From a virus, in the IMG/VR virus record IMGVR_UViG_3300042324_001133, positions 1 through 36,234 of that record: 36,234 bases of DNA, one strand, 5' to 3'. Below are positions 2,836-34,793 of the stretch, in pieces. The stretch's first letter is position 1; each line of letters begins with the position of its first letter. Below the pieces are notes generated by a model, which made no database searches, was not told the DNA's origin, and saw only the letters and a list, made by a program, of their open reading frames with translations. Made by a program: the position numbers and the translations under genes.

Positions 2836-2850
2836 CAGAAAGAATATATA

Positions 2851-3804: not shown

Positions 3805-3810
3805 ATCCAG

Positions 3811-6730: not shown

Positions 6731-6763
6731 TTCTCAAGCCATATTAGAAGTTGTAAGTAGTGT

Positions 6764-6771
6764 GATAAATA
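6764..6771 (+). promoter_or_regulatory. T4-type late promoter octamer (GATAAATA)
   Basis: GATAAATA lies 21 nt before the ATG at 6793 in a 62-nt gap between genes. An AAGGG ribosome site sits at about 6781-6785. It would drive the second kelch-like block (6793-10859). Confidence 0.6.
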
Positions 6772-6792
6772 CACTATGATAAGGGAAAATAT

Positions 6793-7767: not shown

Positions 7768-7782
7768 TAGAAAGAATAATAT

Positions 7783-8787: not shown

Positions 8788-8805
8788 GATAAAGGTTTAA
8801 AAAGA

Positions 8806-9807: not shown

Positions 9808-9860
9808 TATTATGATCCCTTTTTATATATAAAAAATATACAGGAACATTTCAATCACAT

Positions 9861-9881
9861 GCAACCTCAGGCGTACAATAA
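9861..9881 (+). pseudogene. Remnant of a kelch-family C-terminus (ATSGVQ-stop)
   Basis: Between two intact paralogs, one frame reads Ala-Thr-Ser-Gly-Val-Gln-stop and is followed by ATAGGATAAAGG, the same kind of tail seen after other family members. The frame is open upstream only to about 9816, with no family repeats. It looks like the surviving end of a deleted seventh paralog, or the displaced original end of the gene at 8806. Confidence 0.55.
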
Positions 9882-9899
9882 TAGGATAAAGGATAAAGA

Positions 9900-10859
9900 A
9901 TGTCAATAACAATAACAACGGGTGGAATAACAATGACTGGTGGAGGTGTAAGCTTTAGTGCCGCACCACCCTCAGAAGCAACAGCAGGATGGTTTGGGGG
10001 AGGATATAGTCCTTTTTACTCAACAGTAGATCGTATTACTTTTGCAACAGATACTGCAACTGCAACAGTTAGAGGACCTTTAAGTACAGCTACCTTTAGG
10101 AATGTAGGGGTTAATACCTTTACTTATGGGTGGAGTGCAGGTGGTAGAGTTCCTGGGAGTCCACCTCAATCAACTATAAGTCGTATTACATATGCAACTG
10201 ATACTGCAACTTCAACTAATAGAGGTCCTTTAGCAGGCGCGGTATATGCCGCAGGAGCAACCACTGATAATACTACATATGGCTGGATTACCGCAGGTGA
10301 TAACGGTGGCTCCACAAAAACTAATATACAGCGTATAACATATTCAACTGATACCGCAACTGCAAGTAATCGTGGATTTTTGGGTGGGTATCTAGGAATA
10401 CGCAGCCTAGCAGGTACCGGTAATAGTACATATGGATGGTTAGGTGGAGGAGAGCCTGGAAACGGAACTGCTAGATCAACTGTTGCTAGAATAGTTTATG
10501 CTACTGATACTAATAATACTACCAATAGAGGTCCATTAAGTTCTGCTAGATATCGGGTAAGTGCAATTGGTAATACTAACTATGGTTGGTTTGCGGGAGG
10601 CCTCCCGGGAACATCAACAATAGACCGTATTGATTTTGCAAACGATACTGCAACAGCCAGTATTCGTGGACCATTAACCTCAGCAAAGTCAGCCACTGGC
10701 ACCGCTGGTAGTAATGATTATGGTTGGATAGCAGGTGGCTCACCCACTACATCCGTCGTTAATCGTATTGATTATGCCAATGATACTACTACCACTAGCA
10801 CTAAAGGTCCATTAAGTTTAGCTAGACATAGTATGGCAGGTATGTCAGGCATACAATAA
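9900..10859 (+). CDS. Six-repeat kelch-like protein, paralog 6
   Basis: This 319-residue paralog has leader MSITITTGGITMTGGG and ends MSGIQ. Its repeats have drifted: RIVYATDTNNTTNRGPLS, RIDFANDTATASIRGPLT and RIDYANDTTTTSTKGPLS appear in the C-terminal half. An AAAGGATAAAG sequence precedes the ATG. It is the last gene of the block; a perfect late-promoter octamer follows at 10884. Virion or adhesion role is inferred as for the other paralogs. Confidence 0.78.
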   Translation: MSITITTGGITMTGGGVSFSAAPPSEATAGWFGGGYSPFYSTVDRITFATDTATATVRGPLSTATFRNVGVNTFTYGWSAGGRVPGSPPQSTISRITYATDTATSTNRGPLAGAVYAAGATTDNTTYGWITAGDNGGSTKTNIQRITYSTDTATASNRGFLGGYLGIRSLAGTGNSTYGWLGGGEPGNGTARSTVARIVYATDTNNTTNRGPLSSARYRVSAIGNTNYGWFAGGLPGTSTIDRIDFANDTATASIRGPLTSAKSATGTAGSNDYGWIAGGSPTTSVVNRIDYANDTTTTSTKGPLSLARHSMAGMSGIQ

Positions 10860-21788: not shown

Positions 21789-22185
21789 ATGGCATATTCA
21801 GATAAAGTAGTTGACCACTACGAAAACCCACGAAATGTGGGAACTTTTGATAAGGAGGACACGCACGTTGGGACTGGTATGGTAGGAGCCCCGGCGTGTG
21901 GTTGTTGGAGATGTAATGAAACTCCAAATAAAAGTAAATAAAGAAACAGGAATTATAACAGATGCCAAATTTAAAACATATGGGTGTGGGTCGGCAATTG
22001 CTTCTTCAAGTCTTGTCACAGACTGGGTCAAGGGTAAAACATTGGATGAAGCAACATCCATTAAAAACTCCCATATTGCCGAAGAACTCAGCCTCCCCCC
22101 AGTCAAAATCCACTGCAGTATCCTCGCCGAAGACGCCATCAAAGCCGCAGTAGAAGATTATAGAAAGAGATATAATGGCCAATGA
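21789..22185 (+). pseudogene. iscU: Fe-S cluster scaffold IscU, frameshifted
   Basis: The first frame (ATG at 21789) gives MAYSDKVVDHYENPRNVGTF and MVGAPACG, then leaves the family and stops at 21941. From 21907 the other frame continues GDVMKLQIKVN, YGCGSAIASSSLVTDWVKGK and LPPVKIHCSILAEDAIKAA to 22185. Together they give the complete proteobacterial IscU with its cluster ligands: Cys in GAPACG, the following Asp, Cys in YGCGS, and His-Cys in KIHC. Seven extra bases (21900-21906, GGTTGTT) cause the shift. The 3' part is markedly C-rich (for example CCTCCCCCC near 22090), unlike the flanks, which suggests recent transfer from a host. A GTG at 21898 with AGGAG upstream could start the second part separately. 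A recoding event, a dead gene or a read error are all possible. Confidence 0.8.
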
Positions 22186-22498: not shown

Positions 22499-22963
22499 AT
22501 GTCAGAAACTATAACTAGCCTACAAGGGGCACTAGCCGGCGAAAGCCAGGCACATGTAAAATATAAATATTTTGCAAAAATTGCACGTGCTGAAGGGCAT
22601 GAAGATATTGCAAAACATTTTGAGCATACAGCAGACCAAGAACTATTACACGCTTGGGGTCATTTAGAATTGCTTATTAAGAAACCAGATACTAAACAAT
22701 GTTTAGAGATGGCAATTGAGGGTGAGACTTATGAGTTTCAAGTCATGTACCCTGAGTTCCGTGAGATTGCAGAATTTGAAGGTAATTTACTTGCGGCAAA
22801 TGAAGCACAACATCAGATTGAAGAATCACAGCGTCATGCTAGTGAGTTCCAAGAGATACTAAAAAAAGCTGAAAAGCGTTTTGCGGCACTTGCTAGAGTA
22901 GAGAAGCGCCATGCTGAAGCATATCAAGCTAAACTTGATGAACTAACAAAGGGAGCAGTATAA
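22499..22963 (+). CDS. Rubrerythrin (diiron domain only)
   Basis: This 154-residue ferritin-like four-helix protein has rubrerythrin-type ligands: E15 (GESQAHVKY), E48-x-x-H51 (DQELLHAW), glutamates in EGETYEFQVMYPEF (74-87) and E135-x-x-H138 (VEKRHAEAY). Rubrerythrins reduce hydrogen peroxide using electrons from rubredoxin. Typical family members are about 190 residues because a rubredoxin domain is fused at the C-terminus; here that domain is missing and is encoded by the next, overlapping ORF (TAATG). SD AAAGGAGAAACT is strong. An oxidative-stress role during infection is inferred. Nearby iron genes make an iron-handling role also plausible. Confidence 0.93.
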   Translation: MSETITSLQGALAGESQAHVKYKYFAKIARAEGHEDIAKHFEHTADQELLHAWGHLELLIKKPDTKQCLEMAIEGETYEFQVMYPEFREIAEFEGNLLAANEAQHQIEESQRHASEFQEILKKAEKRFAALARVEKRHAEAYQAKLDELTKGAV

Positions 22964-23091
22964 TGGATCATGTATGTGTAATTTGTGGCCATGTCCACAA
23001 TGAAGAAACAGAAGGAAAATGGGATGAATTACCAGAAGATTTTCCTTGCCCAGAGTGCGGTGGTTTTAAAGTTGATTACGAAACTATTTAA
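22963..23091 (+). CDS. Stand-alone rubredoxin-like protein (42 aa)
   Basis: This ORF of 42 codons starts at the A of the rubrerythrin TAA (TAATG) and encodes MDHVCVICGHVHN, then KWDELPEDFPCPECGG. Two Cys pairs (C5-x2-C8 and C29-x2-C32) form the Fe(SCys)4 site of the short rubredoxin domain that normally ends rubrerythrins. The partner order and overlap show that an ancestral fused gene has been split by a stop/start, or that the domains are ancestrally separate. Its likely role is electron delivery to the rubrerythrin upstream. The 139 nt after it hold no gene. Confidence 0.9.
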   Translation: MDHVCVICGHVHNEETEGKWDELPEDFPCPECGGFKVDYETI

Positions 23092-23860: not shown

Positions 23861-24538
23861 ATGAATTTAGCAAATGTAGGATATTACATTCCTGACGTTC
23901 CTGCTCTATACCCAAACGATATGGAAAAGTTTTGGGATATGTGGAATAACAACAAAGAATTGCTAACCAAAACTAAAAAAGATAACGTTGAAAATAGTGC
24001 AGGGAATGACTTAAAAACTTTATACGAAGATGCAAACTTTGAAGGAATGATTACGTATCTAAAAAATGACAACTACCTAAGAGGTAGTACATGGAAACAC
24101 AACATAATTTTGGAGCCTAGTATTTGGCATCCTTATGTTGAAGCATTGGAAGAAAGAATGCCGTGGTATGAGTGTCACTCTGTTATTCTCTGGGCAGCCA
24201 TCAAGCCCGTACTATATCATATAGATCCTAGTCCACTATGGCCAGGTCCGTGTGCAATTAGAAGTTTAATATATGATGATAACCCCAGCCCAACATTTAA
24301 ATTGAGACATGGAAAAAACGGTGAAGAACAACATGTCCCTTATAATAAAGAGAGAAATACTTTTGCGTTCAACAATATGAATTTTTATCACGGTGCAGAT
24401 TACAATCCTAAGCACTATAAAATTTTAATGAAAAGTTTTGGTAAAATAAAATCAGCCGAATTGTTGAAAAAACAGATCATGGAAACAAAAGAAAAGAATA
24501 TGCCTATCTGGGAAGTGAAGGATTCTGTAAATGAGTGA
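23861..24538 (+). CDS. Predicted 2OG-Fe/aspartyl-hydroxylase-like oxygenase A
   Basis: This 225-residue protein has a double-stranded beta-helix pattern: H120-x-D122 (VLYHIDPSP), then CAIRSLIYDDNPSPTFKLRH, the distal H177 (NFYHGADY) and K187 in KILMKS in place of the usual Arg. The N-terminal 100 residues are helical and Trp-rich. Spacing and the 'NTFAFNNMNFYHGA' motif recall cupin-like asparaginyl/aspartyl hydroxylases, but the family is not certain. It overlaps the next gene by 8 nt, and the two are clear paralogs with the same iron-site order. The pair likely arose by tandem duplication and then diverged in substrate. Confidence 0.7.
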   Translation: MNLANVGYYIPDVPALYPNDMEKFWDMWNNNKELLTKTKKDNVENSAGNDLKTLYEDANFEGMITYLKNDNYLRGSTWKHNIILEPSIWHPYVEALEERMPWYECHSVILWAAIKPVLYHIDPSPLWPGPCAIRSLIYDDNPSPTFKLRHGKNGEEQHVPYNKERNTFAFNNMNFYHGADYNPKHYKILMKSFGKIKSAELLKKQIMETKEKNMPIWEVKDSVNE

Positions 24539-25196
24539 AATCACTGAAGATTCTTTGATTTGGACTGCGTTAGATGCACCTAAGTTAGTACCGGCAAATT
24601 GGGATTTGTTCTGGGAGCAGTGGGATAAACACGCCGGCGCCAGTTATATCAAGGGCTCTGATCCTGTAGGAAATAAAGATTCTAAGTATGCTAAGACAGG
24701 AGTGCGTACTGCATTTTTTAAGGGAATTAATTTGTACGCAAAGGATGAGAAAGATTTAGTAGACGGTAGCTGGGAATTACCGTACTTAGACTACAAAGAA
24801 ATCTTTCCCAATCTATTAGATGATATTTATAAAGCAATGCCTTGGGTAGAAGAACTTTTAGTGTGCAGATTGTGGAACAGTGTTATAGATATACCTTACC
24901 ACAGTGACCATACATTAGAAAATGTTGCACTAAGAGCAATGATATATGACGAAAATTCAAAAGGTACTTTCAAACTTTGGAAGCCGGGTATTAATAGAAC
25001 TTATGTCGATTTACCTGAAGAAACAAATTGGTTTGTTTATAACAACGCTAAGTGCCTACATGGTTCTGATAAGACAGACGGTGTTAACAAGATAATATTG
25101 TTAATTGTTCACAAAACAAAAAGTAAAGAACAAATGATAGAGCACTTTAAGTCTAGTGCTGAGAAGTATCCCGAAAGCTTTCTTTATTATCCTTAA
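24531..25196 (+). CDS. Predicted 2OG-Fe/aspartyl-hydroxylase-like oxygenase B (paralog of A)
   Basis: This 221-residue paralog aligns with the upstream gene at H124-x-D126 (IPYHSDHT), ALRAMIYDENSKGTFKLWKP, H177 (KCLHGSDK) and K187 (KIILLIVH). The iron residues are conserved although overall identity looks low, so a catalytic role is retained. The N-terminal region also matches A by a Trp-rich start (DLFWEQWDKH against MEKFWDMWNN). Its last 44 nt overlap the 3' end of an antisense DUF1289 gene. The substrate is unknown. Confidence 0.7.
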   Translation: MSEITEDSLIWTALDAPKLVPANWDLFWEQWDKHAGASYIKGSDPVGNKDSKYAKTGVRTAFFKGINLYAKDEKDLVDGSWELPYLDYKEIFPNLLDDIYKAMPWVEELLVCRLWNSVIDIPYHSDHTLENVALRAMIYDENSKGTFKLWKPGINRTYVDLPEETNWFVYNNAKCLHGSDKTDGVNKIILLIVHKTKSKEQMIEHFKSSAEKYPESFLYYP

Positions 25197-25341
25197 TGCG
25201 ATAAACTATTCTTAATTTCTCATCATTTGATAACTTACTCCAGTCTTGTATTTCTTCAAGTGTTCGTCTACAGCCAATACAAACATCATCTTTCATCTTA
25301 CAGATACTTTTACAAGGACTGGGTATTAATTTTTTATGCAT
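25153..25341 (-). CDS. DUF1289-family small Cys-rich protein
   Basis: This minus-strand gene of 62 codons carries four cysteines in a DUF1289 pattern, C10-x3-C14-x6-C21-x2-C24 (PSPCKSICKMKDDVCIGCRR), followed by TLEEIQDWSKLSNDEKLRIV. That is the family's usual length and layout; it is thought to bind a metal, with unknown role. It faces the plus-strand oxygenase B (44 nt 3' overlap), and its start codon overlaps the start of the plus-strand gene at 25336 inside an ATGCAT palindrome. No SD is visible. Because the protein family is recognisable, this is a real gene and not a shadow of the plus strand. Confidence 0.85.
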   Translation of the reverse strand: MHKKLIPSPCKSICKMKDDVCIGCRRTLEEIQDWSKLSNDEKLRIVYRIKDNKESFRDTSQH

Positions 25342-25346
25342 AAAAA
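25331..25346. promoter_or_regulatory. 16-bp palindrome containing two overlapping divergent start codons
   Basis: TTTTTATGCATAAAAA is a perfect palindrome. The ATG at 25336 (plus) and the ATG at 25341 (minus) share the central ATGCAT, so both proteins begin Met-His-Lys. No SD is evident on either side, so initiation must be weak, leaderless or otherwise unusual. Confidence 0.85.
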
Positions 25347-25881
25347 TAAAGTGACTACTTGGGTAACTGATTTTACTCTTGATGATTCATACGAATCATT
25401 GAGAGAAGAACAATACAGTAAAACCCATAGATTGAGTAAAAATTACTCTAAGCACCATGTGTCAGAAATCAGTGCTAAAAGTATTTATTACGGCAGTGAT
25501 AGTCAGCCAAAAATTGTTTGTAGCATATTACATAGACCATGCTGGCCTAATGGAGTATACAGAATACTAAACAGACTTTGGAAACCTGATATGAACACAG
25601 GACCAACGTTTGGTATCGATGAAGGTTTTGGAGAGTTAATAAAAAGTCAGGCAGCATGGTGTTTTGAAAACGGGGCAAAAGGTGTGTTTATGTCCCGAGA
25701 GACAAAGCCACATTGGCAATCATGGGCACAACCTATATTTGTTGAACAAACAGGAATAGAGTTCTATGCCCCTACACAAAAGTTTTTAACTTGCAACAAT
25801 GAATGTGATGATTCTTGTTGGCAATACATTCTTTATTATGGTGACAATAGCTTACTAAATACTTGGAAGCAGGGGGTGTAA
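25336..25881 (+). CDS. Hypothetical protein, possible GNAT-like fold (181 aa)
   Basis: The protein begins MHKNKVTTWVTDFTLDDSYE. A strand segment QPKIVCSILHRPCWPNGVYR leads into LNRLWKPD; a helix (GFGELIKSQAAWCFENGAKG) and VFMSRETKP follow. The C-terminus is Cys-rich (FLTCNNECDDSCWQYILYYG). The strand-helix-strand order fits a GNAT-like fold, but there is no acetyl-CoA loop that I would call. It begins on the ATGCAT palindrome shared with the DUF1289 gene and ends 1 nt before the next gene. No function can be assigned. Confidence 0.6.
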   Translation: MHKNKVTTWVTDFTLDDSYESLREEQYSKTHRLSKNYSKHHVSEISAKSIYYGSDSQPKIVCSILHRPCWPNGVYRILNRLWKPDMNTGPTFGIDEGFGELIKSQAAWCFENGAKGVFMSRETKPHWQSWAQPIFVEQTGIEFYAPTQKFLTCNNECDDSCWQYILYYGDNSLLNTWKQGV

Positions 25882-25882
25882 C

Positions 25883-26482
25883 ATGGAAATACGTAGATTA
25901 GGGGTAGACGATTATCATCATTTAGAAGAAATTATTTCAGTACGTGCGGCAACTAAGAAGTTTGTAAATACGTTTATGAATGATGACAAACCAGTTACAG
26001 AAGCTGACGAGGAAGAATACAAAACTAGATGGCTTGCAGGGATGCAAAAATGGTATTTGACTGATTCTGCTACACATGATTTATACGGTGCTTTCTCAGA
26101 TGACGGGGTATTACTAAGTTGCATGTCCTGGCGCAGTGATTTACCGAGTCAATGGAGCGACGGTTGGGTCGTGGGGAACTTAAAAGCAAGACCCGGTCAC
26201 TCATTTATGACTAACGGTATCTTACAATTATGGAAAAAGATGTTTGAAGTGTGTGAGAATAAGGGACTCAAAAGATGGCATATGCTAATCATAGAGGGCA
26301 ATAGAAACAAATATCAAGCTATTGCTGACCGATATCTTAAAGATATTGATGATTCTTATTCATATGAATGGACATTTATTGTTCCACCTAATATGCAACC
26401 AACCGAAGACTGGGTTTGGGGAACGATGGGTAGAAATTTACTAAATAAAGAGATAAGAGTAAGAACAGGAACCAAAAAATGA
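25883..26482 (+). CDS. GNAT-like acetyltransferase (tentative)
   Basis: This 199-residue protein starts MEIRRLGVDDYHHLEEIISV, the usual GNAT beta1-alpha1 entry. HDLYGAFSDDGVLLSCMSWR (beta2-beta3), a central LKARPGHSFMTNGILQLWKK (possible CoA loop and helix) and the RWHMLIIEGNRNKYQAIADR motif follow. The last resembles the C-terminal 'N...Y...GF' region of the family. The classic loop is modified (RPGHSF). The start lies 1 nt after the previous stop with AGCAGGGGGTGTAAC as ribosome site. It overlaps the desaturase gene by 4 nt, so it is part of that operon. The acceptor is unknown. Confidence 0.65.
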   Translation: MEIRRLGVDDYHHLEEIISVRAATKKFVNTFMNDDKPVTEADEEEYKTRWLAGMQKWYLTDSATHDLYGAFSDDGVLLSCMSWRSDLPSQWSDGWVVGNLKARPGHSFMTNGILQLWKKMFEVCENKGLKRWHMLIIEGNRNKYQAIADRYLKDIDDSYSYEWTFIVPPNMQPTEDWVWGTMGRNLLNKEIRVRTGTKK

Positions 26483-27294
26483 AAACTAATTTAACCGTCA
26501 AAGATTTTTTCAAGATTACATTCGCATATAAAAATTTATGGGGCGGTATAATTCCAATGCATATTGCCGGAGTTTATGCTGTAGTTAGTGCAATTATGGG
26601 TGATTGGTCTGCGATTAATTGGCTGTATCTAGCACTAGGGTACTTCTGTTTTATGATGCTAGGTATCACTATAGGTTATCATAGGTATATCAGTCATAAG
26701 TCATTTGAGACATACGCTCCGGTAAAATATATTCTACTGTTCTTTGCTATGCTAGCGGGTCAAGGCAGTCCTATTTTTTGGACAACTACTCATAGAGATT
26801 TGCATCACCCATATAGTGACGGTGAAAAAGACCCTCATTCTCCCAATAAAGGCATCTTCACTAGTTGGTTTTTATGGTTATGGAAGATAGAAGAATCTGA
26901 TATTGAACTAAGAAAAATAGTAGATTTATTACGTGATCCCGTTTATGCATTTTGTCATAAACACTACATGACATTGTATTGGATCGGAAACTTAATATTT
27001 GCACTTATTAGTATTGACTTCTGGCTTTGGTTTGTAATTGTTCCTAGTGTAATTGCATTTAACAGTTATAGCCTAACTAACTTTTTAACGCACATGCCTA
27101 AATTAGGGTATAGAAATTACGACACTGATGATAAGAGTACAAACACTTGGTGGTTATTCCCAGTAGTGTTGGGAGAGTGCTGGCACAACAACCATCACGG
27201 TGACGTTAAGGCATCACACTTTGGTAACTTACACTTTTGGGAAATGGATCCGAGTGGTGTTGTTATCAACTTAATCAGAACAGATAAAAGATGA
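26479..27294 (+). CDS. Delta-9-type fatty acid desaturase
   Basis: This 271-residue integral-membrane enzyme has all three histidine boxes of the acyl-CoA desaturase group: H68-R-Y-I-S-H73 (GYHRYISH), H105-R-D-L-H-H110 (TTHRDLHHPYSDG) and H236-N-N-H-H240 (GECWHNNHHGD). They bind two irons that abstract hydrogen from an acyl chain with O2. At least four hydrophobic spans are visible (about 28-41, 48-64, 83-97, 166-190). Length is a little under the bacterial norm (about 300). It would raise membrane unsaturation or make an unusual lipid chain. Electron donors are not encoded beside it, though the rubredoxin at 22963 is conceivable. It overlaps both neighbours by 4 nt. Confidence 0.93.
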   Translation: MKTNLTVKDFFKITFAYKNLWGGIIPMHIAGVYAVVSAIMGDWSAINWLYLALGYFCFMMLGITIGYHRYISHKSFETYAPVKYILLFFAMLAGQGSPIFWTTTHRDLHHPYSDGEKDPHSPNKGIFTSWFLWLWKIEESDIELRKIVDLLRDPVYAFCHKHYMTLYWIGNLIFALISIDFWLWFVIVPSVIAFNSYSLTNFLTHMPKLGYRNYDTDDKSTNTWWLFPVVLGECWHNNHHGDVKASHFGNLHFWEMDPSGVVINLIRTDKR

Positions 27295-27428
27295 GTGAAA
27301 TAAAAATATACAAGGGTGATGTTCCAATTAATAGACCTTGCCATGCATGGGTTGAAGAAAAATTTAAACTAATAGAGAAGATGAACAGCCTTACCCCTAA
27401 GTATTCGGGTAAAGATTTGATAAGGTAA
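27291..27428 (+). CDS. Small ORF downstream of the desaturase (45 aa)
   Basis: An ATGA overlap with the desaturase stop starts a frame of 45 codons, MSEIKIYKGDVPINRPCHAW and then a helical KFKLIEKMNSLTPKYSGKDL, ending LIR. It stops 3 nt before the next ORF, so it fits perfectly in the operon. I do not recognise it. It could be a regulatory or accessory peptide, or a precursor for the radical SAM enzymes in the island; nothing directly supports the latter. Confidence 0.65.
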   Translation: MSEIKIYKGDVPINRPCHAWVEEKFKLIEKMNSLTPKYSGKDLIR

Positions 27429-27431
27429 TCA

Positions 27432-27986
27432 ATGATTGACAAAGACACCTTTTATTTCAAACATGTGGATGTTCCTTGCATTGAAAAAGAAATTGAAAAT
27501 TTTAAAAAAGTATATTACATTGCTGATGTAGCTGAATTTAGGAGAGTAGATAACATAAATCATGTAAGAATTTTAATGCCTTCTGTGTTTACATGGTTTG
27601 ATGAACATAAAATTGAGATAGATAAAATTTTTGTCATAAGTAATCTACCCGGTCAGATGCAGAGAAAACACATTGATTATGACGCTCGTAAATTAGCAAT
27701 TAATTTACTATTAACACCTGAATCTAAAAAAGGAATAACTAAATTTTTTGAATTAAAAGATCCCAATATAATACCTGAATTGTTGTTCACCGAAGATACT
27801 AATCTACCGTATTCTAAGTATAATGACAGCGACTTAATACCTGTTACATACTATAGTATGGAAAGTCCAATCCTACTCAATACTAACAAAATACATAGTG
27901 TAATGAACATTACAAGACATCACAGGTCCGTTGTTAGTTTTAGATTTAAAGAAGATCCGTGGTTTTTAATTGAGGAGCAAATATGA
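27432..27986 (+). CDS. Predicted 2OG-Fe oxygenase, paralog of 31940 gene
   Basis: This 184-residue protein has an iron facial triad pattern: H80-x-D82 (QRKHIDYDARK), H155 (NKIHSVMN) and R165 (HHRSVVSFRF). The core strands AINLLLTP, PVTYYSMESPILLNTN and VSFRF match those of the minus-strand protein at 31940-32491, residue for residue in the metal positions. Both start with a Phe-Tyr-Phe-Lys segment. The protein is shorter than TauD-type enzymes. It overlaps the next gene by 4 nt. Function and substrate are unknown; the fold inference rests on the triad and shared strands. Confidence 0.65.
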   Translation: MIDKDTFYFKHVDVPCIEKEIENFKKVYYIADVAEFRRVDNINHVRILMPSVFTWFDEHKIEIDKIFVISNLPGQMQRKHIDYDARKLAINLLLTPESKKGITKFFELKDPNIIPELLFTEDTNLPYSKYNDSDLIPVTYYSMESPILLNTNKIHSVMNITRHHRSVVSFRFKEDPWFLIEEQI

Positions 27987-28735
27987 AGGGTATAGGTGAA
28001 AAACCTTTTGTTGATTGTCAACATGTCATTGATACTGAAACACTCAAATCTTTGAATTTAGAGATTTGCTCGGGTATTGCATTAAGCAGACCTCAAGCAG
28101 GCGTGTATGGTCCGGGAGTAATTGATGAGAAAAAATATGGAAGTTTCTTGTCGCAGAAAACAAAAATGGCGTTTGATCCTATAATAGAGGAAAGCAGATG
28201 GATGCAAATGGATCACGACCAACAAAACACCTTTTTGAAATTGTACAAAGACTTATACAATCCAAGTTCAACTGTATACTTGCGTGAAGCTAAAAAAGAT
28301 GTAGTCGGACTAGTCGCATATAAAAACAAGATGAATCCTGACTATTTTACATGGAACAATAATATAGACTACTTTCCAAAACTTAAAATTTGGTTAGACA
28401 GTTTAATAGGTACTGTGTTTGAACATTATGGAAGAATATTGTTCTTTATACACGAACACGATTGCCAACTGTTACTGCATCGGGATGGGGTATCATATTA
28501 TCCCCACAATAATGAATTTGTATGGTTAAATCCAATGGGTAAGAAAAAATTCTACGTGTTTGATGAAGACACCCATACAAGACATTATGTAGATTCTCCT
28601 GCTGTGTTCTTTAATGATTTAGATATGCACGGAGGAGATGCGACTGGATCTATGACTTGGTCATTAAGAATTGATGGTAAATTCTCAACAGAATTAAAAA
28701 AGAACTTAGCTATTCAAGGTATAGAAAAATATTAA
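27983..28735 (+). CDS. Predicted 2OG-Fe oxygenase (HRD type)
   Basis: This 250-residue protein has H166-R-D168 (LLLHRDGVSYYPHNNEF), WLNPMGKKKFYVFDEDTH, then H216 (DLDMHGGDATG) and R229 (TWSLRIDGKF), again the His-x-Asp...His...Arg order. The N-terminal 120 residues are mostly helical and unrecognised (ICSGIALSRPQAGVYGPG). It ends the plus-strand run that starts at 25336 and converges with a minus-strand gene (4-nt overlap). The substrate is unknown. Confidence 0.7.
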   Translation: MKGIGEKPFVDCQHVIDTETLKSLNLEICSGIALSRPQAGVYGPGVIDEKKYGSFLSQKTKMAFDPIIEESRWMQMDHDQQNTFLKLYKDLYNPSSTVYLREAKKDVVGLVAYKNKMNPDYFTWNNNIDYFPKLKIWLDSLIGTVFEHYGRILFFIHEHDCQLLLHRDGVSYYPHNNEFVWLNPMGKKKFYVFDEDTHTRHYVDSPAVFFNDLDMHGGDATGSMTWSLRIDGKFSTELKKNLAIQGIEKY

Positions 28736-29082
28736 TCGTTTGCTTCAATGATAATTGAATAACCGGTACCGGATGTTTCGAGCCATTTTTTCTTTTCTTC
28801 ATAATGCTCTAACATCATATTCTTAACGAATAATGAAATTTCTGGATCAGTCTCATTGATAGTAATCGATGTAACCCAGTTTATAGACTCATCTTCTGGT
28901 TGATACTGTTCTGCCTTCAATTCAAAAGAGCCAAACTTTTGCATGGCAGTAATAGTTTCATCAATTGTTTGACCACCTGTTTCAATTAAATGTTCTACTG
29001 CTGACTTTAGTTTAGATGGGTTTGTACTACTAGGTATTTTTGGATTCCATCTTGGGCCACCCCTCCAGACAACTTTAATCAT
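28732..29082 (-). CDS. Small conserved protein, paralog of 29075 gene (116 aa)
   Basis: I start it at the ATG at 29082 because GGAGG stands six bases upstream; the longer frame from 29100 would need TTG. The protein begins MIKVVWRGGPRWNPKIPSS, with a helix (LKSAVEHLIETGGQTIDETI) and a C-terminal helix (FVKNMMLEHYEEKKKWLETS). It aligns with the upstream neighbour: MxKxxxxxGGxxW at the start, then EHLIxxGGxTxDxxI. The pair are tandem duplicates, overlapping by 8 nt. The family is unknown to me. Confidence 0.7.
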   Translation of the reverse strand: MIKVVWRGGPRWNPKIPSSTNPSKLKSAVEHLIETGGQTIDETITAMQKFGSFELKAEQYQPEDESINWVTSITINETDPEISLFVKNMMLEHYEEKKKWLETSGTGYSIIIEAND

Positions 29083-29416
29083 TTGTTTCCTCCACTTCAA
29101 TTTTCATTTTAAAACCGTCACCGACGGCAGTTCTACTTTTTTCAAGAATATCTACTATTGCGTCTTTCAAGTTTTCAGTCTCAACTTCAAAATGAAATAC
29201 AATCATTGCGTCAATATATCTAGGATCTAAATCTTCAGATATGTTTACCGGCTGTGTACGAAGATAAGAAAGCAAATCTATCCCTACGTCAAGCGTCAAT
29301 CCACCTTGTACTATTAGATGCTCTAACCCGGATTGAGTTTTTCCTGGATACACCAAACTAGGTGTATTGCTATCCCATTTTTCCCCACCGCTAAATATGT
29401 AATTGATTTTGTACAT
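29075..29416 (-). CDS. Small conserved protein, paralog of 28732 gene (113 aa)
   Basis: This begins MYKINYIFSGGEKWDSNTPS, with a helix (GLEHLIVQGGLTLDVGIDLL) and a C-terminal helix (NLKDAIVDILEKSRT). The shared EHLI-x2-GG-x-T-x-D core identifies the neighbour as a paralog. Its ATG is five bases after a late-promoter-like octamer and has no SD, so it may be made from a leaderless mRNA. The two small genes form a two-gene unit that continues from the radical SAM gene upstream. Function is unknown. Confidence 0.68.
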   Translation of the reverse strand: MYKINYIFSGGEKWDSNTPSLVYPGKTQSGLEHLIVQGGLTLDVGIDLLSYLRTQPVNISEDLDPRYIDAMIVFHFEVETENLKDAIVDILEKSRTAVGDGFKMKIEVEETND

Positions 29417-29421
29417 GCTAA

Positions 29422-29429
29422 TATTTATT
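29422..29429 (-). promoter_or_regulatory. Late-promoter octamer (AATAAATA, minus) 5 nt from start codon
   Basis: On the minus strand AATAAATA is followed by TTAGC and the ATG at 29416. The octamer overlaps the stop codon of the radical SAM gene (GAA-TAA-ATA). A chance origin from the TAA stop is possible, but the 5-nt spacing repeats at 11727 and 30647. Confidence 0.45.
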
Positions 29430-30642
29430 CTAAATATTGCTTGTGGTATTTAAACCATATAGGAAATTCTTCTTCTAAATCTTTATTTTGTATTGTAGCA
29501 AAGTCTTTAAAATATCTTGCTTGCATTGAATAATTGGACCTAGCAAACGCTAATGCTTTTTTGGCATGTTGTTCTAATGCAGGATGTTTAATAATATCAC
29601 TATCCAAGTAGTGTTTTATATATTCTTTGTCAGAGTGCCATAATGCTGCCATGTCAGTAAACGCTAAAACATTGTGCAACACTTCAATCTCATGTGGTAA
29701 TGTCTTTAGATAGTCAATTGTATTTTGAAATGAAAAGAGATTTAGACTTTGCAAGCAAACATTTGCATAATATTTGCTGGTTTTTAGTTCATCCATATAT
29801 CTACATAAAATACTAATTTTTTCATCCCAGTTTGTAGGCCAACGAATAAACTGATCTTCACGACCGGTTGATTCTAAGCTGAATCTAAATTCTACATTTT
29901 CAATGTGATTCATCAACTCAACAATCTCGGGATCGTATATAGTTCCATTTGTAACTATGTGTAAAAACTTTATCGGAGTCTCTTTGGTAATTAAAAATTT
30001 TAGAAAGTCTTTGAATTTAGGATTAAAAAAAGGCTCACCCCCAGACAGTTTTATAGAAGTTATGTTTGAACACAATTCTTTAAGTTTTTCATATGACGCA
30101 TCATTCTTAGTCCAATCTAAGTTGTCAAATATGTTTAATTGTCTTTTATATAATTGGCGCTGGCCCTCATCTTCTGTTATTTGAACCATTTTCATTCTAG
30201 TAGACTGTAAGTTAGAACTTAATGAAGGAGCACACATCGTACAACTCAAATTACAAAGATAACCAAATTGCACATCTAAGAATTTTAACTTTGGATTTTC
30301 TATATATTTTTCAAAGTCTGTGTCTATAGTATCATTAAATATTTTTTGATAATGTTGTCTATAACTACTAACACCCAATGCTTCTTGTGACCAACACCTG
30401 CTACATTCTGGCGTTGCTGACATAATGTTATCGTACTGCATTTTGGATTGCAATTTTTTAATAGTATCAGTGGGCCACGCAATATCAGCGTCATCTTTGA
30501 TGTTGTCCCATTTTACCATGCTTACATCCATTTGATTACAGCAAGCTCTAATTACTCCACGAGGAGATACACTTAACGCTGTAAATGGTATCAAGCATAA
30601 CTTTGAATCGTTGTCCATAACATATTTAGTTGAGCAGTACAT
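29425..30642 (-). CDS. Radical SAM protein with N-terminal Cys-rich twitch-like region
   Basis: This 405-residue protein has a radical SAM cluster motif C130-x3-C134-x2-C137 (GYLCNLSCTMCAP). Typical downstream elements follow: SIKLSGGEPFFNPKF (the GGE SAM-binding motif) and HIVTNGTIYDPEI. The N-terminal 90 residues carry C16, C34, C35, C80 and C83 in a SPASM/twitch-like arrangement (SPRGVIRACC, PECSRCWSQE). That suggests an auxiliary cluster placed before, not after, the barrel. Enzymes of this kind often modify peptides or small molecules by radical chemistry. Its substrate is unknown. It is the first gene of the minus-strand unit (29425, 29075, 28732). Confidence 0.88.
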   Translation of the reverse strand: MYCSTKYVMDNDSKLCLIPFTALSVSPRGVIRACCNQMDVSMVKWDNIKDDADIAWPTDTIKKLQSKMQYDNIMSATPECSRCWSQEALGVSSYRQHYQKIFNDTIDTDFEKYIENPKLKFLDVQFGYLCNLSCTMCAPSLSSNLQSTRMKMVQITEDEGQRQLYKRQLNIFDNLDWTKNDASYEKLKELCSNITSIKLSGGEPFFNPKFKDFLKFLITKETPIKFLHIVTNGTIYDPEIVELMNHIENVEFRFSLESTGREDQFIRWPTNWDEKISILCRYMDELKTSKYYANVCLQSLNLFSFQNTIDYLKTLPHEIEVLHNVLAFTDMAALWHSDKEYIKHYLDSDIIKHPALEQHAKKALAFARSNYSMQARYFKDFATIQNKDLEEEFPIWFKYHKQYLE

Positions 30643-30646
30643 CCTA

Positions 30647-30654
30647 AATAAATA
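30647..30654 (+). promoter_or_regulatory. Late-promoter octamer (AATAAATA) 5 nt from start codon
   Basis: AATAAATA followed by TTCGT and the ATG at 30660 lies in the 17-nt gap between divergent genes. No SD is present, so a leaderless transcript is predicted. Confidence 0.48.
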
Positions 30655-30659
30655 TTCGT

Positions 30660-31244
30660 ATGAACTACATCATCAGACCGCTTGAACTAAGAGACCTATC
30701 CATAATGGAAGAAAAAATAAAAGAATGCAATACATTTAACTTTGCTAATTCTAGGGCATCTATGTCAAAGGAAGACTATTTAAAATACAGCACAAATTTG
30801 TTTCATATGGAACGGCATGTAATACATGGATGTTTCTATAAAGATGAATTGACAAGCATGATCGCAACGCATGAGTTAAAGATAATACCAAGCTATATTA
30901 TTAAAAACTACAAAGTGTTTAGTCCTTCTGGATATTTTTCCCCTAGAAAAAATGGTTGGAATTTGTTGCTCACAGCAGTGATAGAATATTTTGAATCTAA
31001 GGGCTTCTACTCGTTTTATGCAATGCAAGGAGCAGATGAAACTAGAAATTACAATATGAGAAAGTCTGTTGAAATTTTGCAGAAGTATGAGTACACAATT
31101 GAAGAATTTGTCACGGCAAACACAAGGTCGATATATGGTTTGCACGACCAAACAATGTATTATGGAAAGACAATTTCAGTGGATACTATTGTTAACCGTT
31201 ATACATGCCTACATGAGCATAGATTAGTCCAACCAAAACTTTGA
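30660..31244 (+). CDS. GNAT-like protein (tentative, 194 aa)
   Basis: The start MNYIIRPLELRDLSIMEEKI is GNAT-like (beta1-alpha1). A strand region HVIHGCFYKDELTSMIATHE, a possible loop SPRKNGWNLLLTAVIEYFES and a strand GFYSFYAMQGAD follow. In the loop, Arg-Lys-Asn-Gly-Trp partly replaces the acetyl-CoA loop. The C-terminal third (TRSIYGLHDQTMYYGKTISV) is not diagnostic. It is divergent from the radical SAM gene and converges on the TauD-like gene, overlapping by 21 nt. Initiation appears leaderless. Acetyl transfer is inferred. Confidence 0.55.
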   Translation: MNYIIRPLELRDLSIMEEKIKECNTFNFANSRASMSKEDYLKYSTNLFHMERHVIHGCFYKDELTSMIATHELKIIPSYIIKNYKVFSPSGYFSPRKNGWNLLLTAVIEYFESKGFYSFYAMQGADETRNYNMRKSVEILQKYEYTIEEFVTANTRSIYGLHDQTMYYGKTISVDTIVNRYTCLHEHRLVQPKL

Positions 31245-31943
31245 AGTGACTCTTTTTAATTTGCACTCACCTTCCATATACTTCCTGCGATGCGGTGCTT
31301 GGTTATTATCAAATATAACAAGATCGTGTAACTCCCACTCTACTGAAACTTTGGGTATATCTGATCCGTTGAGTATGTTCTCGCAATAATTTTTAAATTG
31401 TTTCAAGTCTATACCATTTGCAAAGGACATTCTACTATCGTATCTAAATAGCAACCTATCAACATGCTCACAGTATGAGTAAACTGAACGAATAGTTTTT
31501 GAAGGTCCAATTTTATATTCAGCTAACACCTGAGGTGTTAGCTCGGGGAACTCTTTAATTATCATGTCAGTCAGATATTTTATATCTGCAAACTCGGTTA
31601 CATTTTTAGAATCAACATGAGAACAGTATAGTGACCTTATTGGTAGATATGGATTTTTTAAATATGTTTGATCCATGTGCCATCCCATTCTAGATGTTCC
31701 TAGAAAATCATTATTGTGTAGGTTTATCACGTTCCTGTTACTAATGTCAGTGTCTGTATACGGAGCTTGCTGTTGCACAAAGTTCTGAACTGGTCCAAAC
31801 TTTTCCAGAATCTTGATAATGTCGTCATTGTTTAAAGGTGTTCCTTTAAATAACAACACCCCGTGTGCAGTTAACAATTCCTTTAAAGTCTTAGATTCAA
31901 TATCTAATGGGGATTTGTGTAGGATAAGTCCAAAAGTATTCAT
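31224..31943 (-). CDS. TauD/TfdA-family 2OG-Fe dioxygenase
   Basis: This 239-residue protein shows the TauD pattern: the early GVLLFKGTPL strand, H89-M-D91 (WHMDQTYLKNP), the distal H218 (NQAPHRRKYM) and R231 before SKFWLD. Family members oxidise sulfonates, phosphonates, amino acids or other small carboxylates. Length is about 40 residues shorter than typical TauD. It overlaps the upstream minus-strand oxygenase (31940) by ATGA, so the two form a pair. The sulfonate link to the sulfotransferase is only thematic. The family assignment is secure; the substrate is not. Confidence 0.85.
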   Translation of the reverse strand: MNTFGLILHKSPLDIESKTLKELLTAHGVLLFKGTPLNNDDIIKILEKFGPVQNFVQQQAPYTDTDISNRNVINLHNNDFLGTSRMGWHMDQTYLKNPYLPIRSLYCSHVDSKNVTEFADIKYLTDMIIKEFPELTPQVLAEYKIGPSKTIRSVYSYCEHVDRLLFRYDSRMSFANGIDLKQFKNYCENILNGSDIPKVSVEWELHDLVIFDNNQAPHRRKYMEGECKLKRVTSKFWLD

Positions 31944-32491
31944 GTGTTAATCAAGTGTAATGGGTTGTTAACAAATCTAATAGATAAACTAATTCTTCTT
32001 GTGTCTTTTAAGTTGTAAACTCTATGTGGTTGAGAAATATTAAAAATTACTGGTTTTTCTAAATCATAAAAGCAAATTTCAGGAAATACATCTGCTCCTT
32101 CATATACTGTATAACTAAGCGCACCGTTAAGTGTTTTGAATTCTTTACCTTCAGTCAACGGTACTAAAAACTTAGTTTGTGTACCTGCGCAGTACTGCAT
32201 ATTCATGTTTAGTGCAAGATATGATTGTTCACTACATCCATCTTTGTGTAAATATCCCACAGTGTTTGGTTCTAATATATGTACAGCAACTTTGCTTATT
32301 TCTAATCCTTGAGTTTTTATCCAGTTATAAAATATAGGACAATAGTTAATAAACTGTTGAACATCATCAAGCAAAGCAAAACCAGGCTTATTAATCTTTT
32401 CAACCTCTTTTAGTGTGTAGTGTCTAGTTTCGGTTAATATAACATCGTAGTTGTCAATTGAGACATATTTGAAATAAAAATTATCCATCAT
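31940..32491 (-). CDS. Predicted 2OG-Fe oxygenase, paralog of 27432 gene
   Basis: This 183-residue protein has H82-x-D84 (YLHKDGCSEQ), a long strand region (YLALNMNM, TKFLVPLT), H156 (SQPHRVYN) and R166 (RRISLSIRF). It is a paralog of the plus-strand protein at 27432, sharing the metal residues, the Phe-Tyr-Phe-Lys start and the SIRF/SFRF end. The ATG doublet (MM) begins four bases after a late octamer with no SD. It runs into the TauD gene (ATGA overlap). Substrate unknown. Confidence 0.68.
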   Translation of the reverse strand: MMDNFYFKYVSIDNYDVILTETRHYTLKEVEKINKPGFALLDDVQQFINYCPIFYNWIKTQGLEISKVAVHILEPNTVGYLHKDGCSEQSYLALNMNMQYCAGTQTKFLVPLTEGKEFKTLNGALSYTVYEGADVFPEICFYDLEKPVIFNISQPHRVYNLKDTRRISLSIRFVNNPLHLINT

Positions 32492-32495
32492 TTAG

Positions 32496-32503
32496 TATTT
32501 ATC
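32496..32503 (-). promoter_or_regulatory. Late-promoter octamer (GATAAATA, minus) 4 nt from start codon
   Basis: The minus strand reads GATAAATA, CTAA, ATGATG. It is close to a plus-strand octamer at 32520, giving back-to-back divergent promoters in a 52-nt gap. Confidence 0.5.
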
Positions 32504-32519
32504 AACCACTTTAGGTCAT

Positions 32520-32527
32520 GATAAATA
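32520..32527 (+). promoter_or_regulatory. T4-type late promoter octamer (GATAAATA)
   Basis: GATAAATA lies 16 nt before the ATG at 32544, with ACAGGAGAATC as a strong ribosome site. It contrasts with the leaderless arrangement of its divergent partner. Confidence 0.6.
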
Positions 32528-32543
32528 TACGAACAGGAGAATC

Positions 32544-33977
32544 ATGGCTAATTTAATAATATGGAATTGTCTCAACGAGGACATTAATGCGTCTAGACCT
32601 TTAGGTGCTCATCAATTATCAGGTTGGTTAAGAAGTCATGGATACACAGTAAAAGTAATTGATTTTTGTCACGCACTATCCACCGACACACTAGTGTCAT
32701 TGACCGAGATGCACATAGATAGTCAGACAGTTGGTGTAGGCGTTAGTTCTACGTTCTGGAATAATATCAATGATGTAAATAGAATGGACAAAAATTTTAA
32801 AAAAATGTCAACTGATAAATTTTTTGAACCTGCCTGGGTGATAGATGCAAGATTGGAAATAGAGAAAAATCATAATCTAGAATGGTTATTAGGCGGTGCA
32901 AGTGTTACTTACTCTCAGTTAGGTTACTTATCTTCTAGATTTAATTGGGTTAAGTTTTATGGATATGCGGAAGATTCGGTGTTGAAATTTATGGATGAAA
33001 AATCTAATAAAACAATAACTAGAAGAATATTTGATATAAAAACACAAACTAATTGCTTTTATGATGATTTAGGTTTAATGCCATCTGAGACATTGTCTTT
33101 AGAGTTGGGAAGAGGATGCCAATTTAAATGTAGATTTTGCACATACCCAATGATTGGTAAAGCAAAAGGAACTTATATTAGAGACCTATCATACGTGGAG
33201 GAAGAACTATTATTTAACTACGAAAAATACGGTATTACTAAGTATGCAATAATGGATGACACTGCAAATGAAAGTACAGAGAAGATAGAAGAACTTGCTA
33301 ATATAGCACAGAGATTACCATTCAAACTATCATGGGTTGGATACAATCGGTTAGATTTAATTGGCTCACAACCTCAGACCGTAGACTTATTAAAGGCTAG
33401 TGGGTTAAAATCTACATTTTTTGGAATAGAATCTTTTCACCCTGAGGCAAGTAAGATTGTTGGTAAAGGTTGGAATGGTAAGCGAGGCAAAGATTATATA
33501 GTAGAATTGAACGAACGGTGGAATTATGAAATTTCAATGACATTATCATTTATTGTTGGACTGCCGTATGAAGATGAAAAATCTTTGGCAGAAACACATG
33601 AATTTTGTATTCAAAATAATATTTCTTCTTGGATATATTTGCAACTGTATATGAACAAGAACTTTGCACAAAGTGAATTTGAAAAGAACTTTGAATCATA
33701 TGGCTTCTCATTTCCAAATCCAATGAAAAATGACTATTGGGTAAACGATTTGTGGACGCATGAAACTGCTATTAAAAAAGCACAAGAGTTAAATTATGAA
33801 CCAAGAAGAATGGAAATGGTAAAACCCATGACATGGTACATCCCAGTATACTCTACATTAGGTTATGACTTTGATGAAGTAAAGAATATGCCGGTTAAAC
33901 AAATTGACAGAATAGATTTGGCCAATAGATTCAGTGCCTTCGTAGACAGTTACGTGGAAAAGCAAAAGAAATTATAA
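32544..33977 (+). CDS. Cobalamin-binding-domain-type radical SAM protein
   Basis: This 477-residue protein has an N-terminal region (about 1-150) that resembles a B12-binding alpha/beta domain (LIIWNCLNEDINASRPLGAH, VGVGVSSTFWNN), without the His of the DxHxxG motif. The radical SAM barrel follows with C192-x3-C196-x2-C199 (LGRGCQFKCRFCTYP). KYAIMDDTANES, FKLSWVGYNRLDL, FFGIESFHPEASK and IVGLPYEDEKS complete a B12-radical-SAM-like barrel. Such enzymes methylate or rearrange small molecules. Length is typical. It begins its own transcript with a good SD and converges on the PLP gene with a 6-nt overlap. Cobalamin use is not proven, since the lower-ligand His is not visible. Confidence 0.82.
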   Translation: MANLIIWNCLNEDINASRPLGAHQLSGWLRSHGYTVKVIDFCHALSTDTLVSLTEMHIDSQTVGVGVSSTFWNNINDVNRMDKNFKKMSTDKFFEPAWVIDARLEIEKNHNLEWLLGGASVTYSQLGYLSSRFNWVKFYGYAEDSVLKFMDEKSNKTITRRIFDIKTQTNCFYDDLGLMPSETLSLELGRGCQFKCRFCTYPMIGKAKGTYIRDLSYVEEELLFNYEKYGITKYAIMDDTANESTEKIEELANIAQRLPFKLSWVGYNRLDLIGSQPQTVDLLKASGLKSTFFGIESFHPEASKIVGKGWNGKRGKDYIVELNERWNYEISMTLSFIVGLPYEDEKSLAETHEFCIQNNISSWIYLQLYMNKNFAQSEFEKNFESYGFSFPNPMKNDYWVNDLWTHETAIKKAQELNYEPRRMEMVKPMTWYIPVYSTLGYDFDEVKNMPVKQIDRIDLANRFSAFVDSYVEKQKKL

Positions 33978-34793
33978 ATTGTCTTTCCAGTATTCTGCCA
34001 AACTAACTCTGACATCACCCTTGTAGCCAAAGAGTAGACATTCTGATTTCTTTAGGTTGTTATCACTACATAATTTATCTAGTCTGTCTGAATAGTTAGA
34101 CCACCAGTAGTCGCAAGGTATGTTGTTGATGATATGAGTAGCTAACTTGACTCCTGACAAATTCACATATCCCAATGAGTTAAGAATAGACAATGATGGT
34201 ATTTCATGCTTGGAGAACAGTAATCCTATTCTATTGTAAGGAATAGCTAATGTTTTGCTAAAACTTACTGACACCGTTTCAAAGTCTGAAACGTCAACTG
34301 ATATAGGTCTCACTAAACCCAAGTAAGCACAATCTAAGTGGATTCTTGTAGGGTTGCACTCTTTAGCAAAGTCTAGTTGGGTAGAGTCTCCCCAACTATA
34401 TCCAGGCCAAGATACAATTATATCTTCTACTTTTTCTGGTTCAACTAATTCTTTGTGACTTTTTTTCATCTGATTGTGCCAATATGCATAATAAGAATAG
34501 TCGCCTTTTTTCCAAGTCATCTGACTTTTAGACAGGGAAAAGATAGTATTGAGGCTATCAGTGTTACCATTCATTACATAGACGAACGGAAAACTATCTA
34601 GGTTCTGTAGCCAATCACTAGACCACTTGATGAACGTTTCTTTGAGTGTGTTGACTGGACCTAATCTTTCAGCGTAGGTTAGGTCTTTGTCATATGGACT
34701 GTAAACTTCAGGTCCTGCTTGACTTATGATATCTAAAATTTTAGAATCTCTGATGGGTTTGATAAGTTTTTTGTAAAAGTCGGAATAATTCAT
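33972..34793 (-). CDS. PLP-dependent aminotransferase-fold protein (short)
   Basis: This 273-residue protein resembles class I/II aminotransferases. It has NGNTDSLNTIFSLSK in the N-terminal third, DCAYLGL (D154, Y157) for the PLP pyridine, and SVSFSKTLAIPYNRIG with K180 as the Schiff-base lysine and R188 in the phosphate or substrate site. It is about 100 residues shorter than standard members and lacks much of the C-terminal small domain, although it ends in a normal GDVRVSLAEYW strand. It could be an active reduced form. Transcription is probably from AATAAATA at 34815, with no obvious SD. Its partner substrates in the island are unknown. Confidence 0.78.
   Translation of the reverse strand: MNYSDFYKKLIKPIRDSKILDIISQAGPEVYSPYDKDLTYAERLGPVNTLKETFIKWSSDWLQNLDSFPFVYVMNGNTDSLNTIFSLSKSQMTWKKGDYSYYAYWHNQMKKSHKELVEPEKVEDIIVSWPGYSWGDSTQLDFAKECNPTRIHLDCAYLGLVRPISVDVSDFETVSVSFSKTLAIPYNRIGLLFSKHEIPSLSILNSLGYVNLSGVKLATHIINNIPCDYWWSNYSDRLDKLCSDNNLKKSECLLFGYKGDVRVSLAEYWKDNL

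Follow-up and report, generated by a model that had tools for sequence, protein, structure and literature searches.

The 36,234-base window described here, which is the entire virus record IMGVR_UViG_3300042324_001133 of IMG/VR, contains an island of enzyme genes at positions 23861–34793. A core of these genes recurs in order in five other phage lineages, so the set is more than motifs assembled by chance. The core encodes several predicted iron(II)/2-oxoglutarate (Fe/2OG) oxygenases, a GNAT-fold protein (GNATa), a membrane acyl desaturase and a short pyridoxal phosphate (PLP) enzyme. It is interpreted as a biosynthetic operon peculiar to phages, which moves as one block and may specify a carrier-dependent acyl or amino-acyl pathway with oxidative tailoring, an interpretation to which a probability of about 0.45 is given. 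That the genes exist as a linked unit is very probable, the chances that the chemistry is of the carrier/acyl kind are about even, and an aminolipid product is the leading guess, albeit a doubtful one. A preliminary description of this DNA had viewed the island as a biosynthetic or surface-modification gene set. All of its open reading frames are present where it placed them (genes are named here by their first position). The biosynthetic view stands for the core (23861, 24531, 27432, 27983, 25336, 25883, 26479 and 33972) but not for 29425 or the TauD gene 31224, and surface modification as a role is a guess.

The closest counterparts of the window's ribonucleotide reductase come from large phages such as Xanthomonas phage X1 and Stenotrophomonas phage Moby (53–59%), and on this basis the phage is called T4-like, probably from an uncultured aquatic group. 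A twin contig, IMGVR_UViG_3300042519_001142, matches the window almost exactly, with one mismatch in 20 kb, and extends 1,459 bases further. It should be pointed out that any IMG/VR record may be a fragment, and a gene missing from a fragment is not necessarily missing from the genome.

Conserved order and linkage of the core genes

IMG/VR was searched with profiles of the desaturase, the family C oxygenase and GNATa, which yielded about 200 loci. The recurrent core consists of 23861, 24531, 25336, 25883, 26479, 27432, 27983 and 28732, together with the PLP gene 33972 and the family of 31940. Five other lineages contain the ordered core (L015; L016; L017/L018 with a third near-identical contig; L019; L020). 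The order is two family A oxygenases, an antisense DUF1289 gene, GNATa, a 25883-type gene and the desaturase, followed by a family B oxygenase and/or a 378-aa oxygenase-like protein, a family C oxygenase and a small antisense protein; the PLP gene lies upstream of the block in these five lineages. Core genes in the relatives abut or overlap by a few bases, and the antisense position of the DUF1289 gene is kept in all five. Identities between the window and its relatives are mostly 50–76%, with lower values for family B (25–37%), 28732 (42–50%) and the first family A copy of L019 (30% to 23861).

Larger records show the same compact arrangement. In a tiled record of 142 kb (G006), nearly all matches to the cluster families fall within 79–90 kb and form a one-strand operon of about 10 kb, in the order acyl carrier protein (ACP), PLP enzyme, oxygenases, GNATa, GNATb, desaturase, 378-aa oxygenase, oxygenase B and oxygenase C; one further desaturase is found outside the operon, at 124 kb. 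G007 has a similar arrangement, plus a few extra matches elsewhere. Relative to the backbone gene g21074, the block is on the downstream side in the window but on the upstream side in G002, G006 and G007; therefore the internal order is kept while the place of the block changes. The possibility that these genes never occur together in related phages is contradicted by this synteny.

The tightest association is that of GNATa with the desaturase. A desaturase is found within 10 kb in 36 of 38 distinct viral GNATa loci; in 32 it is less than 900 nt downstream on the same strand, and in 24 directly adjacent. For comparison, 52 distinct loci were taken around distant relatives of family C, and a desaturase is present in only one of them. 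The p value of this difference (Fisher p 1.4e-21) serves as a guide only, because a different gene was used to pick the comparison set and phage loci are not entirely independent of one another. The linkage extends to loci that are just 27–45% identical. In the desaturase scan, desaturases less than about 40% identical to that of the window were without GNATa, and some exceptions appeared in the later GNATa scan.

The same loci separate the core from its neighbours. The N-twitch radical S-adenosylmethionine (SAM) enzyme of the 29425 type is present in none of the 38 GNATa loci and in 46 of the 52 family C loci, and TauD is present in two of the 38; the 32544-type radical SAM enzyme is similarly frequent in both sets (13/38 and 24/52). 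Because 29425 is missing from all GNATa loci and TauD recurs in only two relatives, the region is best described as a conserved operon with neighbouring cargo. A single system comprising all island genes was rejected on the absence of 29425, and the neighbouring genes outside the core are probably independent cargo.

GNATa is nearly virus-only within the limits of a scan of 84,980 species genomes of prokaryotes, which used two short patterns and so could miss distant cellular relatives. One relative was found, on a 3,485-base contig of an actinobacterial metagenome-assembled genome, where GNATa also precedes a desaturase; this contig may itself be viral. Among 50,697 phage records, near-DNA search and single-protein tblastn left most island proteins unmatched, and KVP40-type phages have just a 23% relative of 29425. 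A desaturase match labelled ‘Acinetobacter phage MD-2021a’ (CAKLQH020000002.1, L012) was not used because its annotation resembles a bacterial chromosome (trp, accD, folC).

Enzymes encoded by the island

Among the enzymes of the island, Pfam by itself backs just four: the desaturase, TauD and the two radical SAM proteins. The remaining oxygenase assignments of the preliminary description were based on motifs, and therefore homologues were gathered and alignment columns that never change were examined. In family A (23861 and 24531, a paralogue pair 29–30% identical), the only invariant columns among 24 homologues, many of them 20–30% identical, are P104, H124, D126, R135, N166, H177 and K187. 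Those of family B (27432 and 31940, 27% identical; 13 homologues) include H82, D84, H156, R166 and R172, and those of family C (27983; 14 homologues) include H166, D168, H216, R229 and D231. Such columns represent the iron triad and the 2OG-binding patterns of Fe/2OG oxygenases; the HxD/E...H triad is conserved in all three alignments.

AlphaFold2 models were built for two proteins, 24531 and 25336. The 24531 model (pLDDT 91.7) was compared with the PDB by Foldseek, and nearly all of its 50 best folds are 2OG oxygenases (PHD2, PolD, HrmJ and AlkB-type), with probabilities of 0.96–1.00, a best E of 1e-4 and modest TM values of 0.3–0.5. The double-stranded beta-helix fold is thus supported by the model for 24531 and by Pfam for 31224, a TauD (PF02668, 1e-15). 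PDB sequence-profile searches with the three oxygenase families gave nothing useful, and family A was settled by structure. Pfam Asp_Arg_Hydrox matches 31940 at E 0.006, below the cut-off, and the family C profile resembles that of the 23861 family (hhalign probability 64%, E 6.7e-5). The prediction that families A, B and C are Fe/2OG oxygenases therefore largely holds by conserved residues, and for family A also by modelled fold. Of the six His-x-Asp...His...Arg/Lys triads first noticed, five are invariant among the homologues of families A, B and C and the sixth belongs to TauD; the model of 24531 shows a 2OG fold rather than an unrelated, non-catalytic one. The types proposed for them need some revision: TauD (31224) and the HRD type (27983) are confirmed, and the Asp-hydroxylase-like pair is 27432/31940, with 23861/24531 nearer to PHD2/PolD-type folds.

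There are two to five family A copies per phage, several in tandem. L016 and L018 have an expanded family with four or five copies in each cluster, as if hydroxylations could be tuned in number. The 378-aa oxygenase-like gene is complete in L015, L016, L018 and L019 at the place where the window has a 45-codon remnant (27291), a sign of gain and loss of single oxygenases.

The desaturase (26479; PF00487, 3.6e-12) has three histidine boxes, HRYISH, HRDLHH and HNNHH, and its profile matches the acyl-CoA desaturase structures 4zyo and 4ymk at 1e-18, as the preliminary description had anticipated. It had also named three GNAT-like proteins. One of these, GNATa (25336), is supported by its fold (pLDDT 84; Foldseek probability 1.00, best E 1e-5), and no Pfam family is matched at E 1. 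Its fold matches include SbzI, a GNAT whose structure was solved together with that of a carrier protein, and Mu Mom, a GNAT-fold DNA modifier. The other two, 25883 and 30660, form one homologous family (hhalign probability 98.3%); Pfam and PDB searches gave no support for a GNAT identity, which is not established.

The PLP-fold assignment of 33972 is upheld by a profile match to histidinol-phosphate aminotransferases (HisC, 2.5e-6) and by the PLP-site residues D154, K180 and R188, invariant among 14 homologues. The protein is short, 273 aa (homologues 262–286 aa) compared with approximately 350–400 aa for full-length fold-type I aminotransferases. Matches of the PLP profile to TALE proteins were dismissed as repeat artefacts. 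Both radical SAM enzymes are real. The 29425 protein exceeds the curated cut-off of NF033640 (208 vs 170 bits, 2e-61). The 32544 protein (PF04055, 3.7e-13) has similarity to a PhpK-type NCBIfam model (1.1e-23, below the cut-off); a canonical B12 methyltransferase was ruled out, as DxHxxG is missing from the alignment and PF02310 matches at just E 0.12. A 52% homologue of 32544 is directly beside the ACP and PLP genes in G007.

A possible pathway and its alternatives

The strongest new clue, which points to acyl or amino-acyl chemistry, is the presence of ACP and FabF-like ketosynthase genes in the relatives. In L018, L019 and L020, an ACP reading frame with a DSLD site is directly upstream of the PLP gene (PF00550, 1.3e-11). 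PF00550 is matched in 10 of 29 records, nine of them above the cut-off. ACP is also close to the PLP gene in L026/L224 and L227, and in L020/G007 it adjoins a 32544-type radical SAM gene. FabF-like ketosynthases with an apparent active-site Cys are found inside the cluster of L114 and, in L203 and L213, at a distance of up to about 6 kb from GNATa.

Since the same enzyme block stands in the same order in other uncultured phages, these phages appear to own a small acyl or amino-acyl pathway. For the carrier-bound substrate, the order of steps, the product and the benefit to the phage, we infer the following scheme. An acyl or amino-acyl group would be carried on ACP, which is phage-encoded in relatives and for the window phage might come from the host or from a copy outside the fragment. 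The short PLP enzyme would supply or join the amine part, and the GNAT-fold protein, nearly always near the desaturase, might transfer or release the acyl chain. The membrane di-iron desaturase would dehydrogenate or hydroxylate this chain, and several small Fe/2OG oxygenases could then hydroxylate the product in turn. The product may be an aminolipid-like (N-acyl-amine) molecule that alters the envelope of the infected cell.

Several observations weigh against this scheme. No ACP was found in the window, and ACP and FabF are absent from the 28.6-kb twin contig and from the G002 and G003 fragments. The core relatives have no adenylation, AMP-binding or acyl-ACP ligase domain to load an ACP, and the OlsB-type acyltransferase PF13444 is found in 0 of 24 records. 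ACP is present in 6 and the PLP gene in 8 of the 38 GNATa loci, most of which have neither. In the window, the PLP gene and two oxygenases are on the opposite strand. In addition, GNAT folds serve many acceptors, and the fold match of GNATa is generic.

The nearest working model for the core is bacterial aminolipid synthesis, in the sense of ‘works like’. OlsB is GNAT-like, OlsC is AspH-like and OlsE is a di-iron enzyme. The comparison is one of working principle and not of membership because the defining OlsB family is absent; no sequence similarity was shown, and the PLP enzyme and family A oxygenases are without an Ols counterpart. The bacterial ornithine-lipid pathway proceeds by acyl-ACP-dependent N-acylation followed by hydroxylases (PMC3972451). 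A second parallel is the altemicidin enzyme SbzI with its carrier protein SbzG, a GNAT fold that works with a carrier protein as proposed for 25336; the fold match is weak and generic (TM ~0.4), and there is no sequence relation.

Among phages, the gene kinds are already known in part. The cultured Pelagibacter phage Mosig EXVC030M (MT647606.1, Mosig_00071-00096; PMC7892664) has adjacent homologues of the desaturase (32%, 1e-24) and the short PLP enzyme (27%, 2e-8). This pair adjoins an Asp_Arg_Hydrox gene, with genes annotated as TauD, GNAT and MoaA-like nearby. The Mosig stretch differs in having no GNATa, family A or family C homologue by BLAST and in its extra sugar and carbamoyl genes, and the record has no ACP. 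The available excerpts of a study on pelagimyophages describe a host recognition cluster, a hypervariable cargo region with radical SAM cassettes like those here, and report a stearoyl-CoA desaturase, fabF and a 2OGFeDO protein among the PMP-D genes of freshwater pelagimyophages; in these excerpts the genes are reported singly, and no conserved operon of such content is described (PMC7029224). Cyanophages P-HM1 and P-HM2 share ACP, ACP synthetase, two Asn beta-hydroxylases and TauD (PMC3037559). In P-HM1, compared by gene kind and not by homology, ACP, TauD, a 2OG oxygenase and a pantetheinyl transferase are instead scattered over the first 50 kb. The preliminary description could name no described phage system with this content, and the open-access literature likewise has nothing describing the operon, GNATa, or a phage biosynthetic cluster or aminolipid synthesis with such a gene set.

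Of the alternatives, the one that survives best, an unlikely one, is host-membrane remodelling only. The desaturase and its GNAT-fold partner would alter host fatty acids, and the oxygenases would be separate enzymes sharing an expression unit. This agrees with GNATa and the desaturase being the most widespread pair, often without PLP or ACP genes, and with phage desaturases being already a theme, in the freshwater pelagimyophages above and in cyanophages, where lipid desaturases are credited to Roitman 2018 in PMC11480375. It accounts poorly for oxygenase, GNAT and PLP genes that are ordered with overlapping starts across lineages differing by about 25–50% in protein sequence.

Rather improbable is tailoring of a surface glycan or lipopolysaccharide, i.e. 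an acylated or oxidized amino-sugar decoration that blocks co-infection. In Mosig, the homologues have tail fibre genes next to them, and a sugar aminotransferase, a carbamoyltransferase and an epimerase are close by; such islands in pelagimyophages are termed host recognition clusters (PMC7029224), and a glycosyltransferase and a sulfotransferase are encoded in the window as well. When the core of the five core relatives was inspected by eye, however, neither a sugar-nucleotide enzyme nor a glycosyltransferase was recognized in it, and ACP, FabF and the desaturase are better suited to acyl chemistry. Little probability attaches to the idea that several hydroxylases oxidize nucleic acids or a phage protein, for example that of tail fibres. 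The family A fold does resemble PHD2 and AlkB-type enzymes, Mom is among the GNATa fold matches, and a 2OG-FeII_Oxy_3 enzyme at 5625 adjoins repeat-rich tail fibre genes, but the membrane desaturase, ACP and FabF would be left unexplained, and no nucleotide-modification kinase or transferase was recognized in the core.

Independent cargo at a hypervariable site, with order kept just through phage kinship, was the alternative raised by the preliminary description and is probably right for 29425 and its neighbours; for the core it is already disfavoured and improbable. Backbone relatives (L046, L076, L083) do bear other cargo near the same genes, and the presence of the N-twitch enzyme, TauD and 32544 varies, but the internal order of the block is kept as its position relative to g21074 changes, and the linkage of GNATa with the desaturase holds in loci of just 27–45% identity.

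Descriptions of metabolic genes in phages usually concern copies of individual host enzymes; here, different phages conserve an operon of several genes. The prokaryote genomes scanned almost entirely lack its hallmark enzyme, and part of the gene set is present in a cultured pelagiphage. It may tentatively be suggested that aquatic T4-like and jumbo phages exchange, as one block, a pathway confined to viruses. Its carrier protein, PLP enzyme and desaturase, with a tunable set of 2OG oxygenases, would produce a lipid or small molecule that is not known from cells. A lipid or lipoamino acid, if this is what the operon makes, would amount to a membrane or signalling molecule specific to viruses. 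In a marine bacterium, aminolipids of the host are known to alter phage attachment (PMC9938194), and therefore a role in superinfection control would be directly testable.

Gene map, neighbouring cargo and surrounding genes

Table 1. Features of the enzyme island (positions in the window)
Position	Strand	Feature	Evidence
23861..24538	+	Core predicted Fe/2OG oxygenase, family A	Invariant H-x-D, H, R, K; 64–68% homologues, same order, four other lineages
24531..25196	+	Core predicted Fe/2OG oxygenase, family A paralogue	AlphaFold2 and PDB fold matches
25153..25341	-	Small DUF1289 gene, 62 aa, antisense within operon	PF06945 1.1e-16
25336..25881	+	Core GNAT-fold protein (GNATa)	AlphaFold2 and Foldseek; desaturase linkage
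25883..26482	+	Core GNAT-like protein, fold not established, homologue of 30660	53–58% homologues in core relatives
26479..27294	+	Core membrane di-iron acyl desaturase	PF00487; structure-profile match; 69–76% homologues
27291..27428	+	45-codon remnant of 378-aa oxygenase-like gene	tblastn 58% identity, E 2e-14, then stop
27432..27986	+	Core predicted Fe/2OG oxygenase, family B (Asp/Asn hydroxylase-like)	Invariant HxD, H, R
27983..28735	+	Core predicted Fe/2OG oxygenase, family C (HRD type)	Invariant H166, D168, H216, R229
28732..29100	-	Small protein, convergent at operon end	42–50% homologues, same place in core relatives
29075..29416	-	Paralogue of 28732	39% over 46 aa, E 3e-9
29425..30642	-	N-twitch radical SAM, neighbouring cargo, non-core	NF033640 2e-61
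30660..31244	+	Associated paralogue of 25883 family	hhalign 98.3%; 7/38 GNATa loci
31224..31943	-	Variable TauD-type Fe/2OG oxygenase	PF02668 1e-15; core relatives L015, L016
31940..32491	-	Associated predicted Fe/2OG oxygenase, family B paralogue	27% to 27432, E 6e-12; invariant residues
32544..33977	+	Variable radical SAM, cobalamin-radical-SAM-like group, without canonical DxHxxG	PF04055 3.7e-13
33972..34793	-	Core (displaced here) short PLP enzyme, aminotransferase fold	HisC profile match; invariant residues

A second recurrent association is seen in about 50 distinct loci (L115–L184), where a family C oxygenase is paired with the N-twitch radical SAM enzyme (46/52); these loci often add a short PLP enzyme (28/52) and a 32544-type radical SAM enzyme (24/52). 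Five further loci (L046, L076, L083, L069 and L027) have a similar backbone, g20008-g20608-g21074-g22175, with different desaturase-bearing cargo within 10 kb. The ribonucleotide reductase of L046 is 81–83% identical to that of the window.

The island is flanked by a rubrerythrin/rubredoxin/IscU-like stretch on one side and a cluster of six tRNA genes on the other. At 22499–23091 a rubrerythrin (PF02915, 4.6e-16) is followed by a 42-aa rubredoxin-like reading frame (PF00301, 5.7e-6), adjoining the IscU gene; an iron/oxidative-stress group thus borders an island of iron enzymes. The IscU/NifU_N-like gene (21789–22185) is split by a frameshift into two reading frames that match the ends of NifU_N (7e-11 and 5e-39). 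The split sequence is identical in the twin contig, and error, decay and recoding are candidate causes.

At the other end of the window (1888–10859), there are six tail-fibre-like paralogues with a repeat like ‘YGWFGGG...VDRITYATDTATASVRGPL’. This array is interrupted by a glycosyltransferase-containing protein, a 2OG-FeII_Oxy_3 oxygenase (5625–6332, 5.9e-16) and a small protein, and a sulfotransferase gene (1011–1856) is directly upstream of it.

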